A stretch of DNA of 64,000 nucleotides from the NCBI GenBank assembly GCA_002869565.1, contig PKUJ01000027.1:318801-382800 (forward strand), written 5' to 3'. The translations under genes were made by a program, and so were the position numbers. Under the pieces are notes generated by a model. It was given only the letters and a program-made list of their open reading frames with translations. It searched no databases and was not told the origin of the DNA. The stretch is from Arcobacter sp. (GTDB taxonomy: Bacteria > Campylobacterota > Campylobacteria > Campylobacterales > Arcobacteraceae). Each line of letters starts with the position of its first letter. Positions within the stretch are counted from its first letter, which is position 1. Shown piece by piece: positions 1 to 16,030 of this stretch.

Positions 1-1725
1 ACTTCAGTAATAGTTAGTCCTAGTTATGGAAACACCTTTTCACAAAAAATTGATTTAAGAGGTTATGGTATTGGTGATGGATATCAAAATGTTGCAATAT
101 CTGTAAATGGCAGAAGATTAAATAATATTGATATGGTTACGCAGTTATTGTCTTCTATTCCAATAGAATCAATAGAAAAAATAGAAATTATTAAAGGTAG
201 TGGCTCTGTACAATATGGAGATGGAGCAAATTCAGGTGTTATAAATATTATAACAAATGGAAAAAATGAAAACTATATTAAATCATACTATGGTAGTAAT
301 GGAACAAAAAATGGAACTGTTAGTTTAGGCTACAGTAATGATAAAGTAATTTTAAATGCTTCTATTGACCGTACTTCTACTAGTGGTACAAGAAGTTTAG
401 CTTCTGGAAATAAAGACAAAAATTACAATTTAAATAAAAATATAAATATTATATATTTTCCTACGGATGATTTAGAATTAAGAGTAGGAAGAACTTTCTC
501 AAATATGAATACTATATATGGTGGAGATTTAACTTTATTAGAATATAAATTAAACCCTAATCATTCAAATAAACTTACAGAACAATATTTTAGATCATAT
601 GTTACGGATGTAGGAGCAACTTATGAGATAAATAAAAATTATTCTATTGATTTAAATTATAATAAAGAGAAAAAGTTAAGTGCTTATTCTACAGGATTTA
701 GATCAAACTACGAATACAAATCTTATAATTCAACTTTTAATATCAAACAAGATGATTTTAACGTTGTTATAGGAGTGGATGCCTTTAAAGCAAATAGAAA
801 TAGCTCTTCTGATAAAACTACTAAAAACAATAAAGCAGCTTTTGTATCTGCTGAATATTACCTAAGTAAAGATTTGACTTTATCAGCAGGTGTAAGAAAA
901 GAAAAAGTTGAGTATATTTATGCTCCAAATACAGGTACTTCTTTAAGTGATGAATTAACACTTGAGTCTCATGATATTGGATTAAATTATAAATTAAATG
1001 AAAATAGTTCAATATTTGCAAACTATAACAGAGCATATCAGGCACCAGATATCGATAGGTTTTTTGCTTCAACATGGGTTTTTAGTGGAGGAGCTTGGAA
1101 TAGTACAACAAATTTTAATGGTTTTATAGAACCAGCAAAAGTTAGAAACTTTAATATAGGATATACAAATATACAAAAAAATAATAAATTAAAAGTTACT
1201 TTGTTTAGAACTAATCTTAGAAATGAGATTTATTATTATAATGTTGGATTTACTAATAGAAATACAAATATTGATAAATCGCATAAATACGGAGTTGAGA
1301 TATTTGATAAGTATTTAATCAATGACAACTTATATACATCATTTAACTACTCTTACATTGTTGCAAAAATTGATCATGAAAATGAATCTAACGGTGCATA
1401 TAATGGAAAATATTTGCCAGGTGTATCTAAACATAATGCTACAATAAACTTAGGATATAACTATGATAAGTTTACTACAGTTTTATCTCATAGTTTTAGA
1501 AGTGGTGCACATGCAGCAAATGATTTCCAAAATAACTTTTTTCAAAAACAAGAAGTCTATAACTCTACAAATTTAAGTCTAACTTACAATTATAAAAATT
1601 TAGAGTTTTTTGCTAAAATAGAAAATCTTTTTAATGAAGATAATGCTTTATGGATAAGAGATGACGCAATTTATCCTAATAATTTTGAGCGTTCATATTA
1701 TGCAGGGATGAAAATTAAATTTTAA
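1..1725 (+). CDS. btuB: TonB-dependent outer-membrane receptor, BtuB-like, 5' truncated
   Basis: The frame is open from base 1, so the N-terminus (signal peptide, TonB box, start of plug) lies outside the window. The first visible residues are plug domain (RGYG, VNGRR, then IEIIKGSGSVQYGDGANSGVINI, the usual plug end). The rest is a beta-barrel rich in Asn, Tyr and Ser that ends in an aromatic residue (KIKF), as outer-membrane barrels do. The stop overlaps the start of a BtuF-like gene in an ATGA arrangement, and the following genes are a vitamin B12-type importer and B12 assembly enzymes. A corrinoid substrate is therefore likely. Sequence alone does not exclude a siderophore receptor; the substrate call rests on context. 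Confidence 0.85.
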   Translation, partial: TSVIVSPSYGNTFSQKIDLRGYGIGDGYQNVAISVNGRRLNNIDMVTQLLSSIPIESIEKIEIIKGSGSVQYGDGANSGVINIITNGKNENYIKSYYGSNGTKNGTVSLGYSNDKVILNASIDRTSTSGTRSLASGNKDKNYNLNKNINIIYFPTDDLELRVGRTFSNMNTIYGGDLTLLEYKLNPNHSNKLTEQYFRSYVTDVGATYEINKNYSIDLNYNKEKKLSAYSTGFRSNYEYKSYNSTFNIKQDDFNVVIGVDAFKANRNSSSDKTTKNNKAAFVSAEYYLSKDLTLSAGVRKEKVEYIYAPNTGTSLSDELTLESHDIGLNYKLNENSSIFANYNRAYQAPDIDRFFASTWVFSGGAWNSTTNFNGFIEPAKVRNFNIGYTNIQKNNKLKVTLFRTNLRNEIYYYNVGFTNRNTNIDKSHKYGVEIFDKYLINDNLYTSFNYSYIVAKIDHENESNGAYNGKYLPGVSKHNATINLGYNYDKFTTVLSHSFRSGAHAANDFQNNFFQKQEVYNSTNLSLTYNYKNLEFFAKIENLFNEDNALWIRDDAIYPNNFERSYYAGMKIKF

Positions 1726-2558
1726 TGAAGTATTTAAATAAACTTTTTTTTATATTTTTATTTACAATTAATTTAATGGCAGGAGAGAGAATAATCACTC
1801 TCTCACCTTCCATAAATGAAATTGTTTTTGCTTTAGAAAGTGGAAATGATATAGTTGCTAATACAGAGTATTGTAATTTTCCAGAGGAATCAAAACAGAT
1901 ACCTAAAGTAGGTGGCTATTCAAATGTTTCATTAGAAAAACTTCTACTTGCAAAACCAAGTATCATACTAGCTCAAGACTATGATAAAGAATTAATTTTA
2001 AATATTAAAAAACTTAATTTGAATGTTCAAACATTTAAAACAAATAATCTTAAATCTATTAAAACAACTATAAAATCAATTGGTCAAATATTAGTTAAAA
2101 ATGAAAAAGCAAAAGAGTTAATTACGGGCATTGATAATAGTTTAGAAAGTATAAAAGATATAGTTTCTAATAAAAAAATTTTAGTTGTAATTAGTCCAAG
2201 AGAAGATTTAAATAAAATAATATATGTAGCTGGTAATAACCTGTATTTTAACGATATAATTGAAGCTTCAGGAAATAAAAATGCTTACTTTTCATCATCA
2301 TTATCTCAGCCAATTGTAAATGTCGAAAAGATTATAAAAATGAATCCTGATATTGTTATTATGTTAACTCCATATATTAATGAAAGAAAAGTTTCTAAAG
2401 ATGAAATAAAACAACCTTGGTTAGAGTTGCCAATAAATGCAGCAAAGAAAAATAAGATTTATTTTATAGATAAAGAGTATGCAGGAATACCAAGTAATAG
2501 AGTTGTAAATTTTATAAATGATTATAAGGATATTTTGGTAGATGTTAGAGATAAATAG
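1725..2558 (+). CDS. btuF: Periplasmic corrinoid-binding protein, BtuF-like
   Basis: 277 residues with an N-terminal signal peptide (hydrophobic stretch ending near Met-Ala-Gly at about residue 20). The mature start RIITLSPSINEIVFAL is the typical opening of BtuF/FecB class III binding proteins, followed by the VGGYSNVSLEKLLLAKPSIIL segment of that family. It should carry a corrinoid from the outer-membrane receptor to the inner-membrane ABC transporter. The start codon overlaps the receptor stop by one base and its 3' end overlaps the ATPase gene by 17 bases, so the four uptake genes are translationally coupled. An iron-siderophore ligand is the main alternative, made less likely by the B12 genes nearby. 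Confidence 0.85.
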   Translation: MKYLNKLFFIFLFTINLMAGERIITLSPSINEIVFALESGNDIVANTEYCNFPEESKQIPKVGGYSNVSLEKLLLAKPSIILAQDYDKELILNIKKLNLNVQTFKTNNLKSIKTTIKSIGQILVKNEKAKELITGIDNSLESIKDIVSNKKILVVISPREDLNKIIYVAGNNLYFNDIIEASGNKNAYFSSSLSQPIVNVEKIIKMNPDIVIMLTPYINERKVSKDEIKQPWLELPINAAKKNKIYFIDKEYAGIPSNRVVNFINDYKDILVDVRDK

Positions 2559-3240
2559 TTTTACAAATCAAATTTTAACTGATATATCTTTTAAACTAGA
2601 TATAGATGAAAACCTTATTATTTTAGGTAAAAATGGTGCTGGAAAATCAACTTTAGCAAAAGTTTTGTGTAATTTAATTTCAAATAAAAATGTAAAACTT
2701 TTTGAGAAAAATGTTCAGGACTTACATGAAAGTCAAAGAACAGGATTTATAAACTATATTCCACCAAAGTTAGAAATATTTGATGAATATATCACAACAA
2801 AAGAGTATCTTGAAATGTCTGCAATTAAAGATAGTAAAAAAAATAAAATCGACAATATAATTACTCTTTTAAAACTTGAAGATGTAAAAGATAGATATTG
2901 TGTAAATTTAAGTAGTGGTGAGCAACAACTATTGCTTTTGGCTTCTGCTTTTGTGCACAATGCACAGATTACAATTTTCGATGAGTTAACAGCAAATTTA
3001 GATATATCAAGAGTAAAAGAAGTATTTGATATATTTAAATCTGCAACTTTAAAACAAAAAATTATAATTACTCATAATTTGGATTTAGCTTATAATCTAA
3101 AATACAAGATTCTTTTTTTAGAAAAAGGAAAAATAGAATTTTTTGGTTCAAGTCAAGATTTTTTTCAAATTGAAAACCTAAATAAATTTTATGACAATAC
3201 TATTAAAATAGTAGATAATCATTTGGTGGTAAACCTATGA
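2542..3240 (+). CDS. btuD: ABC transporter ATP-binding protein, BtuD-like
   Basis: 232-residue ABC ATPase. Visible motifs are Walker A GKNGAGKST at residues 29-37, signature LSSGEQQ near residue 133, Walker B ITIFDE near residue 155 and the switch histidine in IITHNLD. The C-terminal part is short, as in FecE/BtuD-type importers. It should energise corrinoid import with the permease that follows. It begins inside the end of the btuF-like gene and overlaps the permease gene by four bases (ATGA). It is clearly an importer ATPase; the substrate is inferred from the operon. Confidence 0.85.
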   Translation: MLEINSFTNQILTDISFKLDIDENLIILGKNGAGKSTLAKVLCNLISNKNVKLFEKNVQDLHESQRTGFINYIPPKLEIFDEYITTKEYLEMSAIKDSKKNKIDNIITLLKLEDVKDRYCVNLSSGEQQLLLLASAFVHNAQITIFDELTANLDISRVKEVFDIFKSATLKQKIIITHNLDLAYNLKYKILFLEKGKIEFFGSSQDFFQIENLNKFYDNTIKIVDNHLVVNL

Positions 3241-4199
3241 GAAAACTTTTTTATGTCATTGGACTTTGTATTATTTTATTTTCACCTTTTTTAGGAGATA
3301 CTTCCTTAGTATATAGAGATATTTTTGATTCGAGTACTACTTCATATACAATATTTTGGGACTTAAGAGTTCCTAGAATTATTCTTGCATTTTTTGTGGG
3401 TTCAATTTTAAGTCTTAGTGGTTTGATTTTCCAAACTATATTTAAAAATGCACTTATTACCCCTTATACTTTAGGAATAGCAAGTGGTACAACACTTTTT
3501 ACAGCTATTTCAATAGTTTTCTTCCCTAGTATTATGTTAGCAGTTTCTGGGGTTTTGGGTTCTTTTTTTACTATTATTATTTTATATTTAATTTCTCAAA
3601 AAATAAATAAAAGTTCTATGGTAGTTTCAACAAATTCTATTTTACTTATTGGTATTGCATTATCATTTTTTTACTCTTCTGGATTAATGTTAGTGTTTTT
3701 TATGAGTAATTTACAAGAGAATTATTCTATTGTAAGATTTACCCTTGGAAGTTTAGATGTTGTAGGATTTAACAGTTCTTTGATTGTTTTGATTGTATCA
3801 ATAATTTTACTTTCAACAGTATTATTCTATAAAGATAAAATCAAACTTCTTTTAATATCAAATGATACGGCATTTTTAAAAGGTTTAAATGTAAATAAAC
3901 TAAATCTTACACTTCTAATTGTTATATCATTGGCAGTTGGAGTTAGTATTAGTTTTGTTGGACCTATTGGCTTTGTTGGACTTGTAATACCACATATCAT
4001 AAAACTTATGTATAAAAAAAGTGCTCATAAATTGATTTTACCTGTATTTTTTTATGGGGGAGTTTTTTTAGTAGTTGCTGATTTTATTTCAAGAAATTTA
4101 AATACTGCTTCAAGTTTACCAATTGGTGTTGTAACCTCATTTATTGGTGCACCATTTTTTGTTTATTTACTTATAAGAAGAAGTTCACAAAATAGATAG
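3237..4199 (+). CDS. btuC: FecCD-family ABC permease, BtuC-like
   Basis: 320-residue polytopic membrane protein with about nine or ten hydrophobic segments. Family hallmarks are LRVPRIILAFFVGSILSLSGLIFQ near the N-terminus and GPIGFVGLVIPHIIKL, the ATPase-contact region, near residue 245. It forms the membrane channel of the corrinoid importer with the BtuD-like ATPase. It is last in the forward uptake group, and its 3' end overlaps the 3' end of cbiB on the opposite strand by 29 bp. Confidence 0.85.
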   Translation: MRKLFYVIGLCIILFSPFLGDTSLVYRDIFDSSTTSYTIFWDLRVPRIILAFFVGSILSLSGLIFQTIFKNALITPYTLGIASGTTLFTAISIVFFPSIMLAVSGVLGSFFTIIILYLISQKINKSSMVVSTNSILLIGIALSFFYSSGLMLVFFMSNLQENYSIVRFTLGSLDVVGFNSSLIVLIVSIILLSTVLFYKDKIKLLLISNDTAFLKGLNVNKLNLTLLIVISLAVGVSISFVGPIGFVGLVIPHIIKLMYKKSAHKLILPVFFYGGVFLVVADFISRNLNTASSLPIGVVTSFIGAPFFVYLLIRRSSQNR

Positions 4200-5061
4200 T
4201 TGCTAAAATAGCCATGATTAAATCAAATTTTGATTTGAATTTTAGAGCTTCTATTATATTTTCTTTTTTTATGACTTCTTCTCCTTCTCCAAAATAAGGT
4301 TTATTTTTAATTTTTCCAAAATAAGAAGTGGGACCACCAAGTTTTATATTTAAAACTAAAGCCATAGCAGAAATTGGATGACCTGCATTTGGACTATCAT
4401 GAAGTTTCCCAAATCTATAAAAGTTTTTAAGAGCATGTTTTGATCTAAAAAGTAGGGCAATTAGTATTGCAGTTAAACGGGAGGGAATATAGTTTACTAT
4501 ATCATCAACTTTTGCTGAAAACTTACCAAAATTTTCATATCTTTTATTTCTATATCCAACCATTGAATCTAAAGTATTAATAGCTTTATAAATAAAGGCT
4601 CCATATAGTCCAAAAAATAGTAGGTAAAACAGTGGTGCAATTACTCCATCACTTAAGTTTTCTGCATAAGTCTCTATTGCGGCTTTATTTACATCAGAGT
4701 CAGTCATATCTTTTGTATCTCTACTTACTAACATTGAAATACTCTGTTTAGGGTTTTGGGATATTATAATTTCTTTTACACAGTCATATAACATTTTAGA
4801 AGATATAGTAAATGATGCTATAAAAGCTTGAAAGATTAGATTATCAAATAAGTTTAATATAGAAGTTACTGTAATAACTATAATAAAAAGTGATATTGTA
4901 AGTAAAAATCCCCTAAAAATTGAATCTTTATAAAACATTTTTTCAAACCATGAAATATAATTACCCATATAAATTATAGGATGTTTAAAATATTTAAATT
5001 GACTAAATTCTCCAAATAAAAAATCAATAAAATATGATAAAAAAAGAAGGTTTAAAAACAT
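4171..5061 (-). CDS. cbiB: Adenosylcobinamide-phosphate synthase CbiB (CobD in Pseudomonas naming)
   Basis: 296-residue integral membrane protein. The N-terminus (DFLFGEF, then HPIIYMGNYISWFEK) and the central motifs ETYAENLSDGVIAPLFYLLFFG, DSMVGYRN and HDSPNAGHPISAMA are characteristic of CbiB. It joins the aminopropanol (phosphate) side chain made by CobD to adenosylcobyric acid. It is immediately preceded by cobD on the same strand with a one-base overlap, so the enzyme making the side chain and the enzyme attaching it are made from one transcript. Length is normal for the family. Confidence 0.92.
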   Translation of the reverse strand: MFLNLLFLSYFIDFLFGEFSQFKYFKHPIIYMGNYISWFEKMFYKDSIFRGFLLTISLFIIVITVTSILNLFDNLIFQAFIASFTISSKMLYDCVKEIIISQNPKQSISMLVSRDTKDMTDSDVNKAAIETYAENLSDGVIAPLFYLLFFGLYGAFIYKAINTLDSMVGYRNKRYENFGKFSAKVDDIVNYIPSRLTAILIALLFRSKHALKNFYRFGKLHDSPNAGHPISAMALVLNIKLGGPTSYFGKIKNKPYFGEGEEVIKKENIIEALKFKSKFDLIMAILATIYFVNFFL

Positions 5062-6095
5062 TATTTATATCTTTTTTCAATTTTTTCAAAAGCTTTTATT
5101 AGGATTTTCATTTTTGCTTTTTCTTTTATAGCAATTCGAACATATTTATCATCTAAAAAATCGAAATTGGAACAATCTCTTATCATGATTTTATATTTTA
5201 TTAATTCATTTTCTAATCTATGAGCACTAAGTTTATTTAGTTTAATCATAAGGAAATTTGTATCACTTTTATAAACTTTTTCTATGAAATTATATCTTTT
5301 GAGTTTATCTATTAAATCATCTTTTATATTTGATGTGATTTTTTTTGTTTCTTCATTAAATTTTTTATCTTTTAGTGCATTTTGTAAATATATTGAATCA
5401 AAATGAGAAATCTTCCATAATGGCTCTTTTTCTTTTAATTTTCTTATATTGTTTTCTGATGAAATTAATATTCCAACTCGTATACTAGCACTACTATAGA
5501 ATTTTGTCATTGATTTTAGAATGTATAATTTATCATACTCTTTTAGATATTTTATTACAGATTCTTTGTCTGTAAAGTCTAAAAAACTCTCATCTATTAA
5601 GATAGTTGCATTTTTTTTAATCCAAGATTTAATCAATTTTTTCAAATCATAATATTTGCCTTCAGGTGTTGAAGGATTTACAAAAATCACCAATGAGTTT
5701 TCTTTTATTTCTTTATTGATATTATCAAATCTATTAATTAAGTCAAGTTTATAATCAAATATTTTTGCAGCTTTTTTATATTCTAAATATGCAGGTGAAT
5801 AAATTGTACAGTGATTTAAGTCTAAATGTTTAAAAAAAGTAAAAATTGCTGAGCTTCCACCGTTAAATATTTCAATTTCTGAAGCTTTTACACTATAAGT
5901 TTTAGATATTATTTTATATAATTTTTCATATGTTGGATATTCAGAAATTTCTAATTTATTTAGATTGTTTTTTATTTTAGGTTTTATAAAATTTATGTTT
6001 GATGAGAGATCAATAATATCTTTTTTTTTACATGCTATTTTTTTTGAAAAAGCTTTAATATTTCCGCCATGTGCAAATTGGTTAATAGATTTCAA
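5061..6095 (-). CDS. cobD: Threonine-phosphate decarboxylase CobD (PLP aminotransferase fold)
   Basis: 344 residues, class I/II aminotransferase fold. The N-terminal HGGNIKAFSKK and DLSSNINF match CobD/CobC proteins. Asn140-Pro, Asp168-Glu-Ser, the PLP lysine Lys198 in LKSMTKFYS and Arg206 form the cofactor site. It decarboxylates L-threonine-O-3-phosphate to aminopropanol phosphate, the linker of the nucleotide loop. Histidinol-phosphate aminotransferase is the close relative, but the N-terminus and the adjacency to cbiB favour CobD. It is transcribed divergently from bluB across a 65-bp gap that must hold both promoters. The enzyme needs phosphothreonine, which draws attention to the kinase gene at 6784. 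Confidence 0.88.
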   Translation of the reverse strand: MKSINQFAHGGNIKAFSKKIACKKKDIIDLSSNINFIKPKIKNNLNKLEISEYPTYEKLYKIISKTYSVKASEIEIFNGGSSAIFTFFKHLDLNHCTIYSPAYLEYKKAAKIFDYKLDLINRFDNINKEIKENSLVIFVNPSTPEGKYYDLKKLIKSWIKKNATILIDESFLDFTDKESVIKYLKEYDKLYILKSMTKFYSSASIRVGILISSENNIRKLKEKEPLWKISHFDSIYLQNALKDKKFNEETKKITSNIKDDLIDKLKRYNFIEKVYKSDTNFLMIKLNKLSAHRLENELIKYKIMIRDCSNFDFLDDKYVRIAIKEKAKMKILIKAFEKIEKRYK

Positions 6096-6160
6096 GTATA
6101 GTCTTTCTTTTTTAGATGGATAATACTGTAAATTTGATATATAAATGCTAAGAGGTAGCT

Positions 6161-6784
6161 TTGAAAAAGTTCAATAAAAAAGATATTAAATGTCTACAAG
6201 ATATTATGTTGGCAAGACGTGATGTACGTGGAAATAAGTTTAATAATAAAAAAATAAAGAATAAAATATTAAATGAGCTTTTAACTGCTGCAAATTGTGC
6301 ACCTTCTGTAGGTTTTTCCCAGCCTTGGAAATTCGTAATTATAAAAAGTAAAAATAAACGTAATAAAATATATGATAATTTTCAAGAAGAAAATAATAAA
6401 GCAAAGAAAAAATTTAAAAATAAACCTTTATATAACAGCCTTAAACTTGAAGGTATAAAAGAATCTTACTTAAATATTGCAGTTTTATATGAAAAATCAG
6501 AAAAAAATGTCTTAGGTCAAACCTCACAAAAAAAGATGGGTGAGTACAGTGTTGTTTGTGCTATTCAAAACTTTTGGTTGATGGCTAGAACATATAATAT
6601 TGGTGTTGGATGGGTTAGCATTTTAAAACCAAAAAGAGTAAAGAAAATTTTAGATATAGATAAAAAATATAAACTTATAGCATATTTATCCGTAGGTTAT
6701 GTGGATGAATTTTTAGATGAACCAGAACTTTTAAAATTAGGCTGGAGTGATAAAAAAACATTAGATGAGATTAAAGTAATTTAA
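6161..6784 (+). CDS. bluB: 5,6-dimethylbenzimidazole synthase BluB
   Basis: 207 residues of the nitroreductase fold. Arg-Arg-Asp-Val-Arg at 19-23 and APSVGFSQPWKF at 47-58 are BluB hallmarks, as is the later SVVCAIQNFWLMARTYNIGVGWVS segment. BluB uses oxygen to cut reduced FMN into dimethylbenzimidazole, the lower ligand of cobalamin. Translation most likely starts at a TTG codon with an AGAGG ribosome site about five bases upstream; there is no better in-frame ATG nearby. It heads a forward run of lower-ligand genes and overlaps the next start by one base. Its presence implies an oxygen-exposed lifestyle. Confidence 0.9.
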   Translation: MKKFNKKDIKCLQDIMLARRDVRGNKFNNKKIKNKILNELLTAANCAPSVGFSQPWKFVIIKSKNKRNKIYDNFQEENNKAKKKFKNKPLYNSLKLEGIKESYLNIAVLYEKSEKNVLGQTSQKKMGEYSVVCAIQNFWLMARTYNIGVGWVSILKPKRVKKILDIDKKYKLIAYLSVGYVDEFLDEPELLKLGWSDKKTLDEIKVI

Positions 6785-7584
6785 TGGGAGTTCATACAAA
6801 AATTTCACTAGAAGATCTAAAGCCTTTTTTTGATGTTGATTCACTACAGGAAACTAATCATGGTAATACAGATACTGTTTATATTTTAAATGATGATTAT
6901 ATTCTTAAAATATATGAAACAAATAGTTTCGAAAATATTAAGGCAGAAGTTGAGATCTTGGGACTATGTGAGAGTTTATGTGTTCCTCATATAAAAAAAG
7001 ATTGTTTTAAAATTAAAGATAAATATGCTTTGATTTTTTCAAGAGGAAAAGGTAAAAGTTTAGAAAAAGCAAATATTCAACACCTTGAACAAATAGCAAA
7101 TTTTTTAAAAAAGTTTCATCTTTTAACTAAAGGAAAGAAACTTAATATAAAATCGAGTTATAACAATGAAAATATAAAACTTCTTATAGATAAAACAAAT
7201 CATCAAACTTTTAAAGAGATATATGACTCTTTGAATCTAAAATTAAATGATGATGGAATTATTCATGGGGATTTATTTTTAGATAATGCAACTTTTTTAG
7301 AAAATAAATTAGAGTGTGTATTTGACTTTAGCGATGCTTGCAATGGTGATTTCTTGTTTGATTTAGCAGTGATTGCTTTGTCTTGGTGCGAGGATAAAAA
7401 GAGTATTGAACACTTATTAAACTTTTATGATTCAAGTGTTTCCTTAGAAGTGTTTGAAAAATATATAAGATATGCATCTTTATATTATTGTGTAAAACGA
7501 TATTTAGAAAATAGAAATTATGAGGACATAATTTTTGAAAAGAAATTTAAAGAATTTATTCAAATAGGAAAAGAAATTGGTTAA
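6784..7584 (+). CDS. APH-fold kinase, type II homoserine-kinase-like; candidate threonine kinase for B12
   Basis: 266-residue choline/aminoglycoside-type kinase fold. Visible are N-lobe Lys42 (ILKIYE), Glu56, the catalytic loop HGDLFLDN with His161, Asp163 and Asn168, and the metal-binding Asp181 in VFDFSDACNGDFLFDLAV. The last segment closely resembles the DFxxACND...YDLA pattern of type II homoserine kinases (ThrB2), which phosphorylate the hydroxyl of a small amino acid. It overlaps bluB by one base and cobT by eight, so it is embedded in the B12 operon. CobD needs L-threonine phosphate, and no PduX-type kinase is seen here. My inference is that this enzyme makes it. A homoserine kinase or an unrelated small-molecule kinase are alternatives. 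Confidence 0.75.
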   Translation: MGVHTKISLEDLKPFFDVDSLQETNHGNTDTVYILNDDYILKIYETNSFENIKAEVEILGLCESLCVPHIKKDCFKIKDKYALIFSRGKGKSLEKANIQHLEQIANFLKKFHLLTKGKKLNIKSSYNNENIKLLIDKTNHQTFKEIYDSLNLKLNDDGIIHGDLFLDNATFLENKLECVFDFSDACNGDFLFDLAVIALSWCEDKKSIEHLLNFYDSSVSLEVFEKYIRYASLYYCVKRYLENRNYEDIIFEKKFKEFIQIGKEIG

Positions 7585-8635
7585 GAATATTATAGGAAAA
7601 AATGATTTTGTTGAGAGTTTAAGAGGTAAAAAAGCTACATTTTTATTATCTTTAAGTAATACAAAAACTTCTGAAATAGAAGGTATCACACAAGCTGGAA
7701 TACCTGGAAAGATTTATCTGACACCTACTTTAGATAGTGAATTTTTGTGTACAGGAGAAGTTAGAAGTTTAGATAATATTGCTGAAACTCCTAAAGGTGT
7801 TCCTACCCCTGCTTTAATAACAAGAGCAGTGCATTTACTTAAACCTTATGGAAATATTGAATTATTAGATTTAGGTTTGCTAATTCCTCCAAAAGTATCT
7901 TATTTCAATATTCATAATTTTGAAATAACTCCTAGTATGAGTATTGCTGAGGATGCAAAGATTGATGCAATGGCTGTTTTTCAAAAAGGTTTAGCATTTG
8001 GACAAACTTTTGAGTGTAAAGATGACTACATTATTTTATCTGAGTCTGTTCCTAGTGGTACTACTACAGCTTGTGCAACAGCTTTGGCTTTAGATTATGA
8101 TACAAAAAAACTATTTAGTAGTTCTTTTAAAGATGTTCCAACTAGTATTCGGGAGCTTACAATTGAGTCTGCATTAAAAAATATAAATAATGAGGATGAC
8201 CTTTTTAGCAGATTAGGAAAAGTAGCTGATAATATGTTGATTTTCAATGCTGGATTTATTTTAGGTTTAAACAATAAAACAAAGATAATACTTGCAGGGG
8301 GAACACAAATGGCTTGTGTTTTACTTATAGTAAATAGCATACTTAAAACTATGGGTGGAGAATTTGATACTTCTAATCTTGCACTTTGTACAACTAAATG
8401 GGTTTATGAAGATGAAAATAGTGATATAAAAGCTCTTCTTGAAATGTTAGACTTTTCTATAAATGCATATTATCCAGAGTTTGATTTCTCAACTTCAAAT
8501 CATCCTGCACTTAAATTATATGATCAAGGTGAAGCAAAAGAGGGTGTAGGAGCTGGCGCTGCTTTAGTTTATGGATTAATAAACGGTCTAAACAATGAAA
8601 ATATTATAAAACAAATAGAAAGCTTTTTAGGATAG
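7577..8635 (+). CDS. cobT: UPF0284-type nicotinate-nucleotide dimethylbenzimidazole phosphoribosyltransferase
   Basis: 352 residues. The pattern GIPGKIYLTPTLDSEFL, then TPKGVPTPALITRA, ESVPSGTTTACATAL and LAGGTQMACVLL belongs to the CobT-like UPF0284/TIGR00303 family known mainly from archaea and cyanobacteria, rather than the classical enterobacterial CobT. It should transfer phosphoribose from nicotinate mononucleotide to dimethylbenzimidazole, giving alpha-ribazole phosphate. The start is TTG inside the end of the kinase gene (eight-base overlap). Position between bluB and cobU supports the role strongly. Confidence 0.85.
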   Translation: MVKNIIGKNDFVESLRGKKATFLLSLSNTKTSEIEGITQAGIPGKIYLTPTLDSEFLCTGEVRSLDNIAETPKGVPTPALITRAVHLLKPYGNIELLDLGLLIPPKVSYFNIHNFEITPSMSIAEDAKIDAMAVFQKGLAFGQTFECKDDYIILSESVPSGTTTACATALALDYDTKKLFSSSFKDVPTSIRELTIESALKNINNEDDLFSRLGKVADNMLIFNAGFILGLNNKTKIILAGGTQMACVLLIVNSILKTMGGEFDTSNLALCTTKWVYEDENSDIKALLEMLDFSINAYYPEFDFSTSNHPALKLYDQGEAKEGVGAGAALVYGLINGLNNENIIKQIESFLG

Positions 8636-8638
8636 ATA

Positions 8639-9130
8639 ATGAAAATTTTATATTTTGGTGGACAAAAATCAGGAAAATCAACACTTTCTGAGGCAAAAGC
8701 TTTAGAATTATCGAAAAATAAACCATATTATATTGCTACATATGATAAAAGTTTTGATGATAAAGAGATGAATTTAAGAGTTTTAAAACATCAAAATCAA
8801 AGAGAAGAGAGGTTTATTACAATAGAAGAGCCTTTAAATATTGTATCAAAAATAGAAGAGGGTAATACTTATCTTGTTGATTGTATTTCTATGTGGATTT
8901 TAAATAATATTGAAAACAGTGAAGAAGAACTAGTCAAGCAACTAGAAGATATAAAAAATATAGATGCAAATATTGTATTTGTATTAAATGATGTTAATAG
9001 TGGAGTAATTCCATTTGATAAGCAGAGTAGGGAGTTTGTAGATTTAACAGGAATTATAGGTCAAAAGTTAGCTTCTTTTTGTGATGAAGTGTATGAAGTA
9101 AAACTTGGACTTGCTAGTAGGTTGAAATAA
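8639..9130 (+). CDS. cobU: Adenosylcobinamide kinase / guanylyltransferase CobU
   Basis: 163 residues, the usual length for CobU/CobP. The P-loop GGQKSGKS lies at residues 7-14. His51 in LRVLKHQNQRE is in the place of the histidine that carries GMP in the Salmonella enzyme. The VDCISMWILNN segment and the ending GLASRLK are also family-like. The enzyme phosphorylates adenosylcobinamide and then activates it with GTP, preparing it for CobS. Three bases separate it from cobT and two from cbiP. Confidence 0.88.
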   Translation: MKILYFGGQKSGKSTLSEAKALELSKNKPYYIATYDKSFDDKEMNLRVLKHQNQREERFITIEEPLNIVSKIEEGNTYLVDCISMWILNNIENSEEELVKQLEDIKNIDANIVFVLNDVNSGVIPFDKQSREFVDLTGIIGQKLASFCDEVYEVKLGLASRLK

Positions 9131-9132
9131 AT

Positions 9133-10527
9133 ATGAAAAATATCTCTATTTTTGGTACAAGTTCAGATGCTGGAAAATCTACAATAACCTTTGTAATTGG
9201 AAAGATATTACAAGATTTAGGAGTGAGTGTAGTTCCTTTTAAAGCTCAAAATGTATCTAACAATGCTTTTGTATGTGATGATGGTAGAGAAATTGCTGTT
9301 GCACAATATTTTCAAGCTCATGTATTAGGCCTTGAAACTTCTTATCATCTAAATCCTATATTGCTTAAATCAGGACGAGGAAGTAGTGCTTCTTTGATAG
9401 TTGAAGGAAAAGTAGTTGCAAATAAAGATGTACTTGAGTATTACAATGACTTAGATAGTTTAAAACCTGCTGTAGATAGATGTTTTGAATATCTTGATGA
9501 AAAGTATGATTGTGTAGTTTGTGAAGGTGCAGGAAGTCCTGTAGAGCTAAATCTTATGGATAAAGACCTTTCAAATATTTATATTGCAACAAAATACAAC
9601 ACAAAAATCATTTTAGTTGCAGATATTGAAAAAGGTGGAGTTTTTGCTTCTATATATGGTGTTTATCATTTATTGCCAGAACAGTTACGTAAAAACGTTG
9701 TTGGTGTGATTGTAAATAAATTTCGCGGAGATATGTCTTTATTTGATGAAGGTATAAATATAATTGAAAATCAGTTTAACATACCAGTTTTAGGAGTGTT
9801 ACCTTATATACCTTTTAATCTTGGCTTTGAAGATTCTCAAAGTTTAAAAAATTATACTCAGGATACAAGTAATACTTTGATAAGTGTAGCAGTGATATTT
9901 TATCCTTATATGAGTAATTATAATGATTTTGAACCTTTAATAGCAGATGAGAGTATAAATTTAGAATTTGTTGAATCAAATATCTCATTAGATAAGTTTG
10001 ATATGATTATTTTACCTGGTTCTAAACTTGTAATTAAAGATTTGAAGTGGTTAAAAGAAATAGGGCTTTTTGATAGAATAAAAAAGTATGATAAAGAAAT
10101 CTTGGGTATTTGCGGTGGATATGAGATGATGTTTGAAAATCTCTATGATACTTATGCTTTAGAAAATGATGAGTCTTGTTCTGAAGTTGGTTTAGGATTT
10201 ATTGATGATGTAATTACTTTTGAAAAAGATAAAACTCTTCAAAAATCTGATTACAATATTTTTGGCTGTGAAATAAGTGGATTTGAGATACATCAAGGAC
10301 AAAGTAATAAATATCCAATAAGCTATGAAAGTAATAAAATAAATGGTACTTTTATCCATGCGATATTTGATAATGATAATTTGAGAAATAAGATATTTGG
10401 AAATATTAATCCAAATTACAAAGAGTATAACTTTGAAGAATACAAAAAAAATAGAATAAATACTTTTATAGAAGAGTTAAAAAATAGACTTGATATTAAG
10501 AGAATTTTGGATGCAATAAATGAATAA
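9133..10527 (+). CDS. cbiP: Cobyric acid synthase CbiP/CobQ
   Basis: 464 residues with two domains. The N-terminal half is a dethiobiotin-synthetase-like P-loop amidoligase (FGTSSDAGKST at 8-18, then VVPFKAQNVSNNAFV and CEGAGSPVELNL). The C-terminal half is a class I glutamine amidotransferase with the nucleophile in GICGGYEMM and the histidine in FIHAIFD. It amidates the b, d, e and g side chains of adenosylcobyrinic a,c-diamide. It is the only gene in this window from the stage before side-chain attachment. It overlaps cobS by eight bases. Confidence 0.9.
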   Translation: MKNISIFGTSSDAGKSTITFVIGKILQDLGVSVVPFKAQNVSNNAFVCDDGREIAVAQYFQAHVLGLETSYHLNPILLKSGRGSSASLIVEGKVVANKDVLEYYNDLDSLKPAVDRCFEYLDEKYDCVVCEGAGSPVELNLMDKDLSNIYIATKYNTKIILVADIEKGGVFASIYGVYHLLPEQLRKNVVGVIVNKFRGDMSLFDEGINIIENQFNIPVLGVLPYIPFNLGFEDSQSLKNYTQDTSNTLISVAVIFYPYMSNYNDFEPLIADESINLEFVESNISLDKFDMIILPGSKLVIKDLKWLKEIGLFDRIKKYDKEILGICGGYEMMFENLYDTYALENDESCSEVGLGFIDDVITFEKDKTLQKSDYNIFGCEISGFEIHQGQSNKYPISYESNKINGTFIHAIFDNDNLRNKIFGNINPNYKEYNFEEYKKNRINTFIEELKNRLDIKRILDAINE

Positions 10528-11278
10528 AATTAATAAATTTGAACAGTATTATTTAGGGTTAAAATTTGCCTTTAGTTACTTTACAATTATACCAATAAAT
10601 TTTGATAAAAATGATGATTTAACTCAGAAAAAAGTTTTAAACTCTATGCTTTATTTTTTGCCTTTTTTAGGATTTGTCTTAGGATTTATAGTTATATTTT
10701 TATATAGTTTCTTAAATCATCTAGAATGGTTTGGAGCACTGCTTTGTGCCTTTGTATATATGTTAATGTATGGTTTTATACATACAGAAGCTATTTTGGA
10801 CACTGTTGATGCCCTTTATGCTAAACACTCTGGAAAAGATGCATATGAAATAATAAAAGATTCTAGCGTTGGCGCAATGGGTGTTTTATATTCTGTTGGA
10901 TTTGTAATTGTAAAATTATCAGCTATTGTTTTTCTTTTGTCAAAGGGGTTCTTTTTTGAATTAATTTCAGTACTTATTATTAGTCGTTTTATACTAATCT
11001 TTTTGATAAAAATATTTGATTTTAAATCAACTTTTGTAAATATGTTAAAGGATGCATTATCTTTTAATTGTCTTTTATTTACATTTATTTTTACATTAAT
11101 TATGATTATATTTCTTAGTGGTTTTAAATCTTTATATTTATTAATTATTGCTTTTATTGTTTCTTTTTTAATTTTTAAATTCATAAAAAAGAATTTAGGT
11201 TTTCTAAATGGGGATACGCTAGGTATGACATTAGAATTGACAGAAATAGTACTATTTATAGTGGTGGTTTGTTTATGA
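10520..11278 (+). CDS. cobS: Adenosylcobinamide-GDP ribazoletransferase CobS (cobalamin synthase)
   Basis: 252-residue polytopic membrane protein. YFTIIPI near the N-terminus, the acidic motif in HTEAILDTVDALYA and KDSSVGAMGV match the CobS/CobV family, although the usual DGLADT motif reads EAILDT here. It joins adenosylcobinamide-GDP to alpha-ribazole (phosphate), the last condensation in cobalamin assembly. CbiB, which works just before it, is also a membrane protein. The stop overlaps the likely cobC start in an ATGA. Confidence 0.87.
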   Translation: MNKINKFEQYYLGLKFAFSYFTIIPINFDKNDDLTQKKVLNSMLYFLPFLGFVLGFIVIFLYSFLNHLEWFGALLCAFVYMLMYGFIHTEAILDTVDALYAKHSGKDAYEIIKDSSVGAMGVLYSVGFVIVKLSAIVFLLSKGFFFELISVLIISRFILIFLIKIFDFKSTFVNMLKDALSFNCLLFTFIFTLIMIIFLSGFKSLYLLIIAFIVSFLIFKFIKKNLGFLNGDTLGMTLELTEIVLFIVVVCL

Positions 11279-11802
11279 TTCTAATAACGCTTCTAAGACA
11301 TGCTCCTGTACCTTTGGAATATCAAAAAAGTTATATTGGTCATAGTGATATTAAAATTGACTTATCTCTAACAGATATATCAAAGCTTGATAATATTAAG
11401 AATAGAAAATATGATTATGTTTATTCTTCTGATTTGCAAAGATGTACACAGACTTTAGACTTAATAAAATTAAATTATAAAAAAGATTTTAGACTAAGAG
11501 AAGTAAAATTTAAAGATGAATTTGAAGGTAAAAATTTTTCTGAAATAGAAAATTTAGCTTCATATGACATAAAATATTTATCCTCAATGAAACGCTGGCA
11601 TAAATTTATATGCTCTGAAACTCTAATTGAATTTGAAAGTAGAGTAAGATCATTTTTAAAAGAACTACCTACTGATGGTGATATTTTAATTTGTTCACAT
11701 GGTGGAACTATAAAAATGATTCATTCAATTCTAGAAAAACAAAATTATGAAACTAGCTTATTAAAAGTAGAGTATATTGACCCAATAGATTTCATATTAT
11801 AA
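11275..11802 (+). CDS. cobC: Histidine phosphatase family protein, alpha-ribazole phosphatase CobC
   Basis: About 175 residues. The motif LLRHAP near the N-terminus carries the phospho-accepting histidine and its arginine partner, and ICSHGGTIKM carries the second histidine of the phosphoglycerate-mutase-like family. I prefer the ATG at 11275, which overlaps the cobS stop as ATGA, to the TTG six bases earlier. In this operon it should remove the phosphate from alpha-ribazole phosphate or from adenosylcobalamin phosphate. Members of this family are hard to separate by sequence, so the substrate comes from context. Confidence 0.82.
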   Translation: MILITLLRHAPVPLEYQKSYIGHSDIKIDLSLTDISKLDNIKNRKYDYVYSSDLQRCTQTLDLIKLNYKKDFRLREVKFKDEFEGKNFSEIENLASYDIKYLSSMKRWHKFICSETLIEFESRVRSFLKELPTDGDILICSHGGTIKMIHSILEKQNYETSLLKVEYIDPIDFIL

Positions 11803-11871
11803 GTTTAGCTTATGATATATTTATAACCTAGTTTAATAATAATTTCAAGTTAATATTAGTATAATCCAAAA

Positions 11872-12075
11872 TTATAATGGTTTGATTATTGATTTAATAC
11901 TTTTGGGTAAATGAGCAAACACTATTGTACTATTTTTTACGAATTCACCATTTTCAAATATTGCAACGTCTAAAGACATATTTGATTTTTTAAAAGATAG
12001 TAATTTTATTGTTTGATGATTAACTTTATAGGTAATATTATGGGATTTTAAATCAATAAATGGTTTCTTAGCCAT
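11872..12075 (-). CDS. Small conserved-looking hypothetical protein, 67 aa
   Basis: Not recognised. The 67-residue product is basic, with alternating hydrophobic and charged residues (ITYKVNHQTIKLLSF, SLDVAIFENGEFV) that suggest a small beta-rich fold. It has no signal peptide, cysteine or membrane segment. A strong ribosome site (AGAAGGAG) sits five to six bases before the ATG, which is the best argument that it is a real gene. It is convergent with cobC and divergent from the TDT transporter gene 54 bp away. Confidence 0.6.
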   Translation of the reverse strand: MAKKPFIDLKSHNITYKVNHQTIKLLSFKKSNMSLDVAIFENGEFVKNSTIVFAHLPKSIKSIIKPL

Positions 12076-12129
12076 ATTTCTCCTTCTTTCAAACCATTAT
12101 AAAAAAATTTCTCTTAAAGGACTCATTTT

Positions 12130-13107
12130 ATGGAACAGACTGAAAATATAAAGTCAATTCCCTCAGATAGATTACAATTTTTCCCAGTGATGATGTTTGC
12201 CATTGTAATGGGGTTTACCGGACTATCAATTGTTTTGACAAAGACTAGTGCAGTTTTATACTTTCCTTCTATTATTGCTACTGTTTTCTCTTTTATTTCA
12301 TTAGTTCTTTTTTTAGTTATTCTTTTCTTTTATACTAAAAAATTCATTTCTTATAAAGAAGAAGTTAATAAAGAGTTTGTACATCCAATTAGAGTGAATT
12401 TTTTTGCAGCAATATCAATTTCAATGCTTCTTTTATCTATTCTTTTTAGACATAGTATTATTGAATTATCACAGATTTTTTTTGTTTTAGGTGCATGTCT
12501 GCATTTTTTTCTTACATTTTATACTTTTAAGTTTTGGATTAATAATAATCTTGAAATACAACATTCAAATCCTGCTTGGTTTATTCCTATTGTTGGTAAT
12601 ATTATTGTGCCAATTGCTGGAAAAGGTTTCATAAGTGATTCAGTTTTATATTTCTTTTTTTCAATAGGTATTTTCTTTTTGATTGTTCTTTTCGCCATTA
12701 TTCTAAATAGAATAATTTTTCACAAACAGTTTGCTCCTAAATTTATGCCAACATTATTTATATTAATAGCTCCACCTGCTATAGGTTTTATTGCATATAT
12801 TAAGTTAACAGCATCTTTAGATTTTTTTGCTCATATTTTATATAGTCTGGCACTATTTTTTACAATTTTGGTTTTTGTTATGTACAAAAATTATATAAAT
12901 ATTAAATTTTTTATCTCTTGGTGGGCATTTACATTTCCTATGGCTGCTATTACTTTAGCAACTCTTTTGATGTATGAATTAACACATGAGAGCTTTTATG
13001 GTTTTCTATCTTACTTTTTCTTAATTATCACCTCTGTAATTATATTTTTAGTTGCAAAAGAGACTATATTACATATGTTTAAAAAAGAGATTTGTATTAT
13101 GGAGTAA
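12130..13107 (+). CDS. TDT/SLAC1-family transporter (TehA-like)
   Basis: 325 residues with about ten hydrophobic segments. The start FFPVMMFAIVMGFTGLSI and the central WFIPIVGNIIVPIAG match the tellurite-resistance/dicarboxylate transporter family, which includes TehA, Mae1 and the SLAC1 anion channels. It should move an anion such as a dicarboxylate, sulfite or chloride across the inner membrane; the substrate cannot be read from sequence. Sulfite export is an attractive idea in a thiosulfate oxidiser but the sox locus is 14 kb away. It stands alone between short intergenic regions. Confidence 0.8.
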   Translation: MEQTENIKSIPSDRLQFFPVMMFAIVMGFTGLSIVLTKTSAVLYFPSIIATVFSFISLVLFLVILFFYTKKFISYKEEVNKEFVHPIRVNFFAAISISMLLLSILFRHSIIELSQIFFVLGACLHFFLTFYTFKFWINNNLEIQHSNPAWFIPIVGNIIVPIAGKGFISDSVLYFFFSIGIFFLIVLFAIILNRIIFHKQFAPKFMPTLFILIAPPAIGFIAYIKLTASLDFFAHILYSLALFFTILVFVMYKNYINIKFFISWWAFTFPMAAITLATLLMYELTHESFYGFLSYFFLIITSVIIFLVAKETILHMFKKEICIME

Positions 13108-13142
13108 TTTAAAAAGATATTTTAGATTAAAAGATAAAGAGA

Positions 13143-13148
13143 TATAAT
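13143..13148 (+). promoter_or_regulatory. Predicted -10 box of the aldo/keto reductase gene
   Basis: TATAAT with a flanking GA in a T/A-rich context, 30 bases before the ATG at 13179. This is the form of housekeeping promoter common in Campylobacterota, where the -35 is weak. An AAAAGG ribosome site follows at about 13165-13170. Confidence 0.5.
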
Positions 13149-13178
13149 CAATCTTAAATTTATAAAAAGGTTATAAAT

Positions 13179-14198
13179 ATGAAATATAATTATATTGGGA
13201 AAAGTGGTCTAAGAGTTACTCCTATTTGTTTAGGAACTATGACTTTTGGAACTACCACTTCAAAAGAAGAAGCATTTAAAATTATGGATAAAGCTTATGA
13301 AAGAGGTATCAATTTTTATGATACAGCTGAGCTTTATCCTGTCCCTCCTAAAGCTAATTTAGCTGGAAATACAGAAATTATTGTAGGAGAGTGGTTAAAG
13401 ACAAAACCTAGAGATTCTATAATCCTTGCAACAAAAGTGGCAGGAGCAGCTTCTGGATGGTTTGTACCTCCTATGAGACATGGATTAACTGCTATAGATT
13501 CTTTTCATATTAAGACAGCTATTGAAGGAAGTTTAAAAAGACTTCAAACAGATTATATAGATCTTTATCAAATGCATTGGCCTGACACAGTTGTTCCAGT
13601 TGAAGAGAGTATGAAAGCTTTTGATGAACTTGTACGTGAAGGTAAAGTAAGATATTTAGGAACTTCAAACGATAGTGCTTATGGACTTACAAAAGCAAAT
13701 GAAGTTTCAAAATATAATAATCTTGCAAGATTTGAATCTATTCAAAATAACTTTTCTCTTTTAAATCCAAGGTTTCATGATGAATTAGCAAATGTATGTG
13801 AAAGAGAAAATATATCTCTTCTTCCATATTCTCCAATAGCAGGAGGAGTTTTATCTGGTAAATATAATGGAGGTTTATACCCTAAAGATACTAGGTTTGG
13901 CATTTATATGTCAAGTGAAAATCCAAGAGTTCAAGCTATGGCAGATAGATTTGTAAATAATAAAACAATAGAAGCCACTAAAAGATATGTAGAATTAGCA
14001 AAAGAGTATGGAATCTCTCCTGTTACTTTAGCTGTAGCATATTCTAAACACTTTGATTTTATTGCTTCAACTATTATTGGTGCTAGAAAATTATCTCAGT
14101 TAGATGAATCTTTTGCAGCTTTAGATTTTAAGATTGATAGTGAGTTATTATCAAAAATTGAAGAAATCCAAAAAGATATTTTATATCCTATGGGATAA
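13179..14198 (+). CDS. Aldo/keto reductase, Tas-like
   Basis: 339 residues. The sequence shows the AKR signature from GINFYDTAELYP (catalytic Asp and Tyr), the lysine in LATKVAG and the histidine in DLYQMHWPD, followed by the NADPH-binding end PVTLAVAYSK and TIIGARKLSQLDE. The insertion after the tyrosine (VPPKANLAGNTE) resembles E. coli Tas and related long-form reductases. It reduces an aldehyde or ketone with NADPH; the natural substrate is unknown. It has its own promoter and is convergent with the following GGDEF gene. Confidence 0.85.
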   Translation: MKYNYIGKSGLRVTPICLGTMTFGTTTSKEEAFKIMDKAYERGINFYDTAELYPVPPKANLAGNTEIIVGEWLKTKPRDSIILATKVAGAASGWFVPPMRHGLTAIDSFHIKTAIEGSLKRLQTDYIDLYQMHWPDTVVPVEESMKAFDELVREGKVRYLGTSNDSAYGLTKANEVSKYNNLARFESIQNNFSLLNPRFHDELANVCERENISLLPYSPIAGGVLSGKYNGGLYPKDTRFGIYMSSENPRVQAMADRFVNNKTIEATKRYVELAKEYGISPVTLAVAYSKHFDFIASTIIGARKLSQLDESFAALDFKIDSELLSKIEEIQKDILYPMG

Positions 14199-14215
14199 AT
14201 AAAAATGGTATAGAA

Positions 14216-15466
14216 TTAAATCTCTGTACCATCATCAAGTATAACTTTGTCTCTGCCACTATTTTTAGCTTCGTACAATAACTTATCAGCATTCTTTTTT
14301 GCATCTATGTAAGAGGTGTAATTATCTCTAAATGCGATTCCTCCACTAAATCTCACATGTATTCTTGTATCTTTGTATACAAAATAGTTTGTTTTTATAA
14401 TTCTTTTTAATCTATATATATATTTTGCAATTTCATCTTTATTTTTATAGTTTATCAAAGAGATAAATTCTTCTCCACCATATCTTGAAATAACATCTTC
14501 TTGTCTAGTCAAACCTTTTAATATAGATGCAAAAGCTTTCAAAATTACATCTCCACAAGCATGTCCATATGTATCATTTACTTCTTTAAAATGATCAATA
14601 TCAATAAAAACTATAGCATATTGTGCATCAAACATGTCATGCTTTTTTTCTATCTTTTCTACTTCTTCTTGATAGGCTCTTCTATTTAGTATATCAGTTA
14701 AAAAATCTGTAGATTTTTCTTCTTTTGCAATTTTAAGTTCTTTTTGAAGTTTTTCTATAGTTTGATTTAGGTCTTCAAATTTAGATTTATTTTGATCTAA
14801 AATATAAAGATTTTTTTGCATAGAGTTTTCTATATTAAAAATAGTATCAATTAATTTACCTTGTAAAACACCTAACTCTCTTTGTGATGAATCTGAAATA
14901 TTTAGTTGTCTTAGCTCATCTTTTATTTTAACTATTTCTTGTGTAGAGTTTGAACTTTCAATAAGAGTTTTTTGAAAGTATTTTTCCATTAGAGTAGTGA
15001 TTTTTATAATATCATCTGTTTTATTTCGTAAAACTTCTCTATCTAAGGCTACTCTATCTCTTGAAATCTGATGTAATCTTCTAATAGTGTCTTTTTTTAG
15101 TAGCTTTCTAGGTTCTTTACTAAGTTTAGAAATAAAATTGTCAATATCATCTTTTTGAATAAAATTAACCGAAGGAGCTAAAATATCATCAAAGATATTT
15201 AATAAATCTTTTATTTCATCATCTGATGCTCTTTTTGAAAGAACTTGAGATAAATCTTTGAAGCTTTCTAAGTATAAGGAGCTTGCTATTTCATTATTTG
15301 TTAGTTCATTTACAAGTTTATCAAAGAATTTTAATTCATCAAAATCAATTGCTGAAATATCAGCTTGTTTTTTGAACTCTTTAAAATAATTTTCTGGTGT
15401 TACTTCAAGGTTATTATCTTTTAAAGTAGTTAAAACGCTCTTTGTTATTTCTTTTATTGCATCCAA
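14216..15466 (-). CDS. Diguanylate cyclase with helical N-terminal region
   Basis: 416 residues. The N-terminal 240 or so are helical, with a predicted coiled coil just before the catalytic domain, and no membrane segment, so it is cytoplasmic. The GGDEF domain has DILNRRAYQEEVEK, DIDHFKEVNDTYGHACGD and the active site RYGGEEF. An RQED inhibitory site lies five residues before GGEEF, so product inhibition by c-di-GMP is likely. The N-terminal sequence opening TKSVLTTLKDN resembles a group of GGDEF proteins common in Campylobacterota. Signal input is unknown. Confidence 0.88.
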   Translation of the reverse strand: MDAIKEITKSVLTTLKDNNLEVTPENYFKEFKKQADISAIDFDELKFFDKLVNELTNNEIASSLYLESFKDLSQVLSKRASDDEIKDLLNIFDDILAPSVNFIQKDDIDNFISKLSKEPRKLLKKDTIRRLHQISRDRVALDREVLRNKTDDIIKITTLMEKYFQKTLIESSNSTQEIVKIKDELRQLNISDSSQRELGVLQGKLIDTIFNIENSMQKNLYILDQNKSKFEDLNQTIEKLQKELKIAKEEKSTDFLTDILNRRAYQEEVEKIEKKHDMFDAQYAIVFIDIDHFKEVNDTYGHACGDVILKAFASILKGLTRQEDVISRYGGEEFISLINYKNKDEIAKYIYRLKRIIKTNYFVYKDTRIHVRFSGGIAFRDNYTSYIDAKKNADKLLYEAKNSGRDKVILDDGTEI

Positions 15467-15632
15467 TTTTATATCCTATATGTATTATTGTAATTATACA
15501 ATAAAAATAATATTTTATAGGAATGATTATTGATTATTATATTTAGAATTGTGAAAAATACAATGCCTATTACTCAAATACATAGAGAATGGCTTATATG
15601 CATATCTATAGGTGCATGAATATAAACTTTGA

Positions 15633-15638
15633 TATAAT
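15633..15638 (+). promoter_or_regulatory. Predicted -10 box of the ybgC-like gene
   Basis: TATAAT 29 bases before the ATG at 15668. An AAAAGGAG ribosome site and a second GGAG stretch lie between it and the start codon. Confidence 0.5.
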
Positions 15639-15667
15639 TATTAATTCAATAAAAAGGAGTTTGGAGA

Positions 15668-16030
15668 ATGAAGATAAGAGTCTATTATGAAGACACAGAT
15701 ATAGGTGGAGTAGTCTACTACGCTAACTATTTAAAATTTTGCGAAAGAGCTAGAAGTAATTTATTTTTTGAAAAAGGTTTATCTCCTCATAATGGCGATG
15801 AATTTTTTGTTGTTAAAAAAGTTGAAGCAGATTATATTAAGTCTGCAACTTTTGCAGATGTTTTAAATGTGACAACAAAATTGTTATCTAAAAAAAATGC
15901 TTCAATTGAAGTTTTTCACGAAATATTTAGAGATGAAGAATTACTTTTTACAGCTAAAATAAGAGTAGCTTATCTAAAAAACTTTAAACCAAATAAAATT
16001 CCAGAAGAAATTTTGAAAATTTTCAAATAA
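15668..16030 (+). CDS. ybgC: YbgC-type acyl-CoA thioesterase (hotdog fold)
   Basis: 120 residues. YYEDTDIGGVVYYANYLKFCERAR at the N-terminus carries the active-site Asp of the 4-hydroxybenzoyl-CoA thioesterase group, and the rest matches YbgC in length and pattern. It hydrolyses acyl-CoA or acyl-ACP thioesters in the cytoplasm. In many proteobacteria ybgC sits with tol-pal genes; here it stands alone with its own promoter. The family call is firm; the physiological substrate is not. Confidence 0.87.
   Translation: MKIRVYYEDTDIGGVVYYANYLKFCERARSNLFFEKGLSPHNGDEFFVVKKVEADYIKSATFADVLNVTTKLLSKKNASIEVFHEIFRDEELLFTAKIRVAYLKNFKPNKIPEEILKIFK

Follow-up and report, generated by a model that had tools for sequence, protein, structure and literature searches.

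The window analyzed here, a 64,000-nucleotide stretch of an Arcobacter sp. genome (contig PKUJ01000027.1), carries a compact group of B12 genes (Table 1). The operon runs in the order bluB-KIN-cobT-cobU-cobQ-cobS-cobC, where KIN denotes the small-molecule kinase that is the subject of this work, and cobD and cbiB are encoded divergently. The first-pass annotation had described KIN as overlapping the genes on both sides, with cobD encoded divergently next door, and the open reading frames bear this out. The TAA of bluB (6782–6784) shares one base with the ATG of KIN, which starts at 6784, and the TTG start of cobT at 7577 precedes the KIN stop codon (7582–7584), an overlap of eight bases. The divergent cobD lies 65 bases from bluB and has the threonine-phosphate decarboxylase family as its best match, at a score below the cut-off. 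The immediate neighbors of KIN in the window are bluB and cobT, not cobD. Relatives of the transport genes at the start of the window were also found beside B12 clusters. No cobalamin riboswitch was found in window positions 1–16000, where the sole Rfam match (E ≤0.5), a snoRNA, did not reach its gathering score, and a promoter scan gave a result no better than shuffles.

Table 1. Features of the B12 locus in the window, key segments of KIN, and copies of a Cys-rich protein at other loci (L-numbers; positions within each locus).
Feature	Position	Strand	Basis
Transport genes: outer-membrane receptor-like ORF and BtuF/BtuD/BtuC-like ABC transporter	133–4199	+	named from sequence
cbiB, adenosylcobinamide-phosphate synthase	4171–5061	-	PF03186, 287.7 bits; TIGR00380, 224.1
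cobD, threonine-phosphate decarboxylase, divergent	5061–6095	-	TIGR01140 top match, 219.9 bits, under cut-off 290.55
bluB, 5,6-dimethylbenzimidazole synthase	6161–6784	+	BluB TIGR02476, 208.9 bits, cut-off 150
KIN, proposed L-threonine kinase (266 aa; small-molecule kinase of APH fold, ThrB2-like)	6784–7584	+	ATG start; ORF and profiles
Codon of K42, beta3 lysine of KIN	6907–6909	+	residue alignment
HGDLFLDN catalytic loop, KIN residues 161–168	7264–7287	+	residue alignment
DFSDACNGDFLFDLA metal-binding segment, KIN residues 181–195	7324–7368	+	D181 invariant
cobT-type (PRK04447/TIGR00303) phosphoribosyltransferase	7577–8635	+	NF003372, 371.8 bits; TIGR00303, 246.2, cut-off 240
cobU, cobinamide kinase/guanylyltransferase	8639–9130	+	PF02283, 128.2 bits
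cobQ/cbiP, cobyric acid synthase	9133–10527	+	TIGR00313, 398.4 bits, cut-off 309.9
cobS	10520–11278	+	PF02654, 119.8 bits
cobC-like histidine phosphatase	11269–11802	+	PF00300, 74.4 bits; TIGR03162, 82.9, under cut-off 162.9
Cys-rich protein copies	L057 5404–5829; L068 6139–6564; L184 11726–12169; L191 11764–12189; L199 7537–7968		

KIN matches the APH family of Pfam (PF01636, E = 9.7e-20). Its top NCBIfam matches are homoserine kinases, at scores far under the cut-offs (NF003558, 77.7 versus 271 bits; TIGR00938, 55 versus 255.9 bits), and by these NCBI cut-offs KIN is outside the homoserine-kinase family. The sole strong sequence match in the PDB is the Agrobacterium homoserine kinase 2ppq (E = 1.3e-9), which is also the best fold match of the AlphaFold2 model (pLDDT 93.7), with a Z score of 25.7 over 251 residues; the next entry reaches Z 21.6, and lower matches include 6ef6 (Z 19.9, 15% identity) and 3dxq (Z 19.7).

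KIN and the ThrB2 family (NF003558/TIGR00938, 2ppq) have in common the fold, the HGDLFxDN loop, the metal-binding Asp, a DF..AC...DLA segment, a similar N-terminus, and the conserved residues Y215 and R239. In the catalytic loop, H161, D163, F165, D167, and N168 are invariant in 53/53 ThrB2 proteins and in 72/72 proteins of the KIN clade, a set that includes partial proteins (e.g., L090, 186 aa) and L189 (from genome G303), which the tree groups with ThrB2. Unlike ThrB2, KIN is shorter and differs at three diagnostic positions: residue 42 is a lysine in 71 of the 72 KIN-clade proteins and in none of the 53 ThrB2 proteins, which have T, Q, or R there; residue 30, an asparagine throughout ThrB2 (53/53), is mostly aspartate in the KIN clade (53/72), as in the window protein; and residue 234, always arginine in ThrB2 (53/53), is Y or F in 67/72 KIN-clade proteins (Y234 in the window). 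Thus, the part of the first-pass annotation that reported ThrB2-type motifs stands, since the HGDLFLDN loop and the metal-binding segment are present, but the sub-cut-off scores and altered diagnostic residues set KIN apart from ThrB2 proper. In a phylogenetic tree that took in 16 ThrB2 rows, L139 from Methylotuvimicrobium buryatense among them, all Campylobacterota KIN rows except L189 (69 rows) were separated from ThrB2 by a branch with support 98/84. Changes at positions invariant in ThrB2, with the catalytic core unchanged, suggest that the substrate of KIN is related to, yet different from, that of ThrB2.

The genomic neighborhoods of the two families also differ. A core B12-synthesis gene lies within 7 kb of at least 58 of the 72 distinct KIN-clade proteins, a lower bound since some loci had only ~1.5 kb of flank per side, versus 1 of 53 ThrB2 loci; recurring across Campylobacterota, the association is more than chance. 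Wider flanks confirmed the linkage at four loci (L019, L022, L024, and L025). When btuC and btuF are counted too, 60/72 loci are B12-linked and 12/72 have neither kind of neighbor. CobD is encoded within 7 kb of 39/72 KIN-clade proteins, and in 17/72 within 150 bases on the same strand. The gene orders vary (e.g., bluB-KIN-cobD, cbiB-KIN-cobD, cobT beside KIN, or KIN beside cbiL-cbiK-cbiM), and the persistence of the association despite this shuffling points to function rather than frozen inheritance. At one of the 12 loci without B12 neighbors (L049, 6871–9154), a KIN-clade relative with 31% identity directly follows hisH/hisA-type genes, away from B12 genes, and its role may differ.

A ThrB2 protein in a comparable setting is that of M. 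buryatense, where cobD, cbiB, ThrB2, bluB, and cobT are consecutive (L139, 5088–9604). This protein scores 318 bits against the homoserine-kinase cut-off of 271, no GHMP-type ThrB over cut-off was found in the genome, and it appears to be the sole homoserine kinase there. Its place between cbiB and bluB means that genuine homoserine kinases can occur in B12 neighborhoods. Either chance put a homoserine kinase there, or the enzyme also acts in B12 synthesis, possibly as a single enzyme for homoserine and threonine; as an independent case, it fits both.

We determined the distribution of KIN by profile search in a class sample of 397 Campylobacteria genomes. KIN is present in 43 and cbiB in 62 of them (the cbiB match in G326 being weak, at 62.6 bits): 42 genomes have both, 20 only cbiB, one only KIN, and 334 neither, i.e., 42/43 genomes with KIN also have cbiB, and KIN occurs in 1/335 genomes lacking cbiB. 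In that one genome (G112), KIN still overlaps cobD. Within Arcobacteraceae, 35 of 104 genomes gave a KIN match in a single-sequence search, counting one weak match (G029, 26 bits) and two fragments (G049 and G065); cbiB is present in 68, and both genes in 31. The lower-ligand gene bluB was found in 44 of the 397 genomes. The 62 cbiB-bearing genomes comprise 30 with KIN and bluB, 12 with KIN only, 13 with bluB only, and seven with neither, so that bluB occurs in 30/42 genomes with KIN and 13/20 without it (Fisher p = 0.77, shared ancestry ignored). KIN is therefore independent of bluB among cbiB-bearing genomes and goes with the linker branch, not the DMB branch, and we rejected it as a DMB-branch kinase. 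Nearly all genomes with KIN have cbiB, but KIN is not universal: it is missing from many relatives with cobD and cbiB, and from 20/62 cbiB-bearing genomes overall.

The 20 genomes with cbiB and without KIN fall into five that carry a norcobamide cluster, two without cobD near cbiB (G354 and G456), and 13 others. The norcobamide cluster is >99.9% identical across the five (G156, G300, G327, G338, and G444); it is a recent shared cluster and thus counts as one event. Its order, quinol dehydrogenase-cbiB-CobD-like-cobU-cbiP-cobT-Cys-rich-cobS-cobC-cbiK-btuC, is the one given in passages of PMC7755780 for the norcobamide region of Sulfurospirillum multivorans. The same passages describe 106 bases upstream of cbiB as missing in S. 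multivorans compared with its relatives, and G327 lacks these bases, which are present in the other norcobamide clusters (L229 versus L182). Gene order and the missing 106 bases together indicate that G327 is S. multivorans, the genera and species of the numbered genomes being deduced. The CobD-like protein of the cluster is only 24% identical to the window CobD and differs at many positions that are near-invariant in CobD. The CobD-like enzyme of Sulfurospirillum, SMUL_1544, reportedly uses serine phosphate, a result ascribed to Keller et al. in 2016; with that substrate, the norcobamide genomes would have no need of a threonine kinase, and KIN is absent from them.

Seven of the 13 remaining genomes entered a CobD comparison and keep the canonical CobD residues; thus, the presence of CobD does not strictly call for KIN. 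Comparing CobD from 23 loci with KIN and 17 without it (18 including the Sulfurospirillum one, which was not counted) revealed no residue that cleanly marks specificity; the differences were of a lineage-like kind. The examined clusters among these 13 hold cobD. No alternative kinase was found among the searched neighbors of B12 clusters lacking KIN; these neighbors encode an SDR dehydrogenase, a GDSL lipase, a MarC-type transporter, three unmatched proteins, and, in the de novo type, a calcineurin-like phosphatase. The gene for this phosphatase (L053, 6062–6811) ends where cobD starts in a de novo corrin operon without KIN, and the protein is a candidate alternative ribazole-phosphate phosphatase. 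Two further proteins recur in these neighborhoods. A Cys-rich protein of 141–147 aa (PDFCPLY..N.KCH...LNCYLC.CPNF; Table 1) is found in Campylobacterota B12 clusters with and without KIN; neither Pfam nor NCBIfam gave a match to the L057 copy, and the protein and the ‘zf-like’ Cys-rich protein of the norcobamide cluster (L182, 17028–17306) may be diverged relatives. A protein of ~202 aa with a hydrophobic N-terminus (L057, 11339–11947; relatives in L065 and L068) overlaps or abuts cobD in many Arcobacteraceae clusters without KIN, and its L057 copy has no Pfam match.

The source genome has one copy of KIN and two GHMP kinases, IspE (348.9 bits, cut-off 191) and ThrB (272.5 bits, cut-off 168.25); no third GHMP kinase was found in it. 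The homoserine kinase role is thus covered, and a PduX-type kinase is absent, since PduX is a GHMP kinase. This agrees with the first-pass annotation, which had proposed looking for a separate thrB and a missing pduX and had placed PduX in a different family. PduX has the same proposed reaction and pathway position as KIN, but KIN has no match to the GHMP domain (PF00288) and was rejected as a PduX member. Similarly, TIGR02535, the annotation of the CbiU kinase discussed below, is not among the NCBIfam matches of KIN up to E 0.1, and membership in CbiU was rejected as well. Exactly two GHMP kinases were found in 36 of 38 further genomes of the class (30 with KIN and eight without). A GHMP ThrB over cut-off is present in 8/8 Campylobacterota tested (the source genome and seven others) versus 0/8 genomes with ThrB2; unlike ThrB2, KIN is linked to B12 genes and co-exists with GHMP ThrB. 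Given this separate ThrB and the differing diagnostic residues, KIN was rejected as an ordinary homoserine kinase.

In our judgment, KIN is probably an L-threonine kinase (EC 2.7.1.177) that feeds CobD during nucleotide-loop assembly, both here and in many other Campylobacterota. It would convert L-threonine and ATP to L-threonine-O-3-phosphate, which the neighboring CobD would decarboxylate to (R)-1-aminopropan-2-ol phosphate, to be joined to cobyric acid by CbiB. This reading draws on the kinase fold, the complete catalytic residues, and a hydroxy-amino-acid kinase as closest known relative, together with B12-operon membership, co-occurrence with CbiB, a separate homoserine kinase, and the absence of a PduX-type (GHMP) kinase. 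The strong linkage and co-occurrence with cobD and cbiB support the original proposal of a candidate threonine kinase in a B12 operon; we infer threonine as the substrate, the flow to CobD, and an origin of the KIN clade from a ThrB2-like ancestor through substrate change. The best-supported description is that of a non-orthologous, APH-superfamily, ThrB2-like L-threonine kinase that, in the present sampling, was found in Campylobacterota. Against it, we counted the 20 cbiB-bearing genomes without KIN, 13 of them with no identified threonine kinase, the M. buryatense ThrB2 in a B12 cluster, the 12 KIN-clade proteins without B12 neighbors, and the position between bluB and cobT in the window.

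Four other roles were weighed. The first is salvage alongside CobD, in which KIN would phosphorylate free (R)-1-amino-2-propanol (or ethanolamine) and so yield the linker phosphate directly. This would fit the APH-like fold that KIN shares with the microcompartment aminopropanol kinase 6ef6, whose substrate is close to the linker, and with choline/ethanolamine kinases (3dxq, Z 19.7). However, 6ef6, an amino-alcohol kinase by its structure title, is less similar, KIN is clearly nearer in fold and sequence to the amino-acid kinase 2ppq, and the activity would be redundant beside cobD, which KIN often adjoins; we regard this role as improbable. Less probable still is a homoserine kinase paralogue merely sitting in the operon: ThrB2 is the closest characterized family and the M. 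buryatense cluster offers a precedent, but every Campylobacterota genome tested has its own GHMP ThrB, and KIN scores far below the ThrB2 cut-offs, lacks N30 and R234, and has K42.

Placement between bluB and cobT would suit a kinase that acts in the lower-ligand branch, on alpha-ribazole or riboflavin, or in cobinamide salvage. This seems very unlikely given the independence from bluB noted above, the 12 KIN-bearing genomes without bluB, and the presence in the window of cobT and cobU, which already cover the ribazole-phosphate and cobinamide-kinase steps. An L-serine kinase supplying ethanolamine phosphate for a norcobamide linker would be compatible with CobD-like enzymes that reportedly take serine phosphate in Sulfurospirillum; yet serine phosphate is already made as an intermediate of serine synthesis, and KIN is missing from all five norcobamide-cluster genomes, so we give this role very little credence.

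To our knowledge, no enzyme making threonine phosphate was previously known in the bacterial group of KIN. Elsewhere, two L-threonine kinases are described in excerpts of PMC6249242, PMC7242693, and PMC8123684, namely PduX of Salmonella (Fan and Bobik 2008, as cited in PMC4285132 and PMC7242693) and BluE of Rhodobacterales (PMC6249242). BluE shares with KIN the proposed reaction, and no bluE was annotated in three regions of bluB-bearing plasmids. A closer parallel is CbiU (Dehre_1608), the proposed L-threonine kinase of Dehalobacter in passages of PMC4285132: like KIN, it is homoserine-kinase-like and was assigned its proposed role on the basis of its operon, its genome lacking pduX, but it is an archaeal-type homoserine kinase with a phosphoglycerate-mutase annotation (TIGR02535). 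Searches of an open-access library turned up no paper that puts forward a threonine kinase of the APH/ThrB2 type for cobamide synthesis. According to portions of PMC6461909, pduX is missing from most verified cobamide producers and was hence omitted from genome-based predictions, and signature genes for cobalamin versus norcobamide are absent.

The threonine kinase is thus a gap in most cobamide producers, one that KIN makes directly testable. KIN would add another enzyme family to those known for the step, with support from linkage and co-occurrence throughout a class of bacteria, and, if this is true, the ‘homoserine kinase’ labels on KIN-type proteins would be corrected. KIN may also help predict cobalamin versus norcobamide. 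It is conceivable, although we lean against it, that in Campylobacterota KIN with a canonical CobD marks an aminopropanol linker, and that genomes without KIN fall back on serine phosphate and make norcobamides, including many Arcobacteraceae besides the PCE-respiring Sulfurospirillum. If so, a single kinase would predict the structural class of the cobamide, for which no signature gene was previously known.
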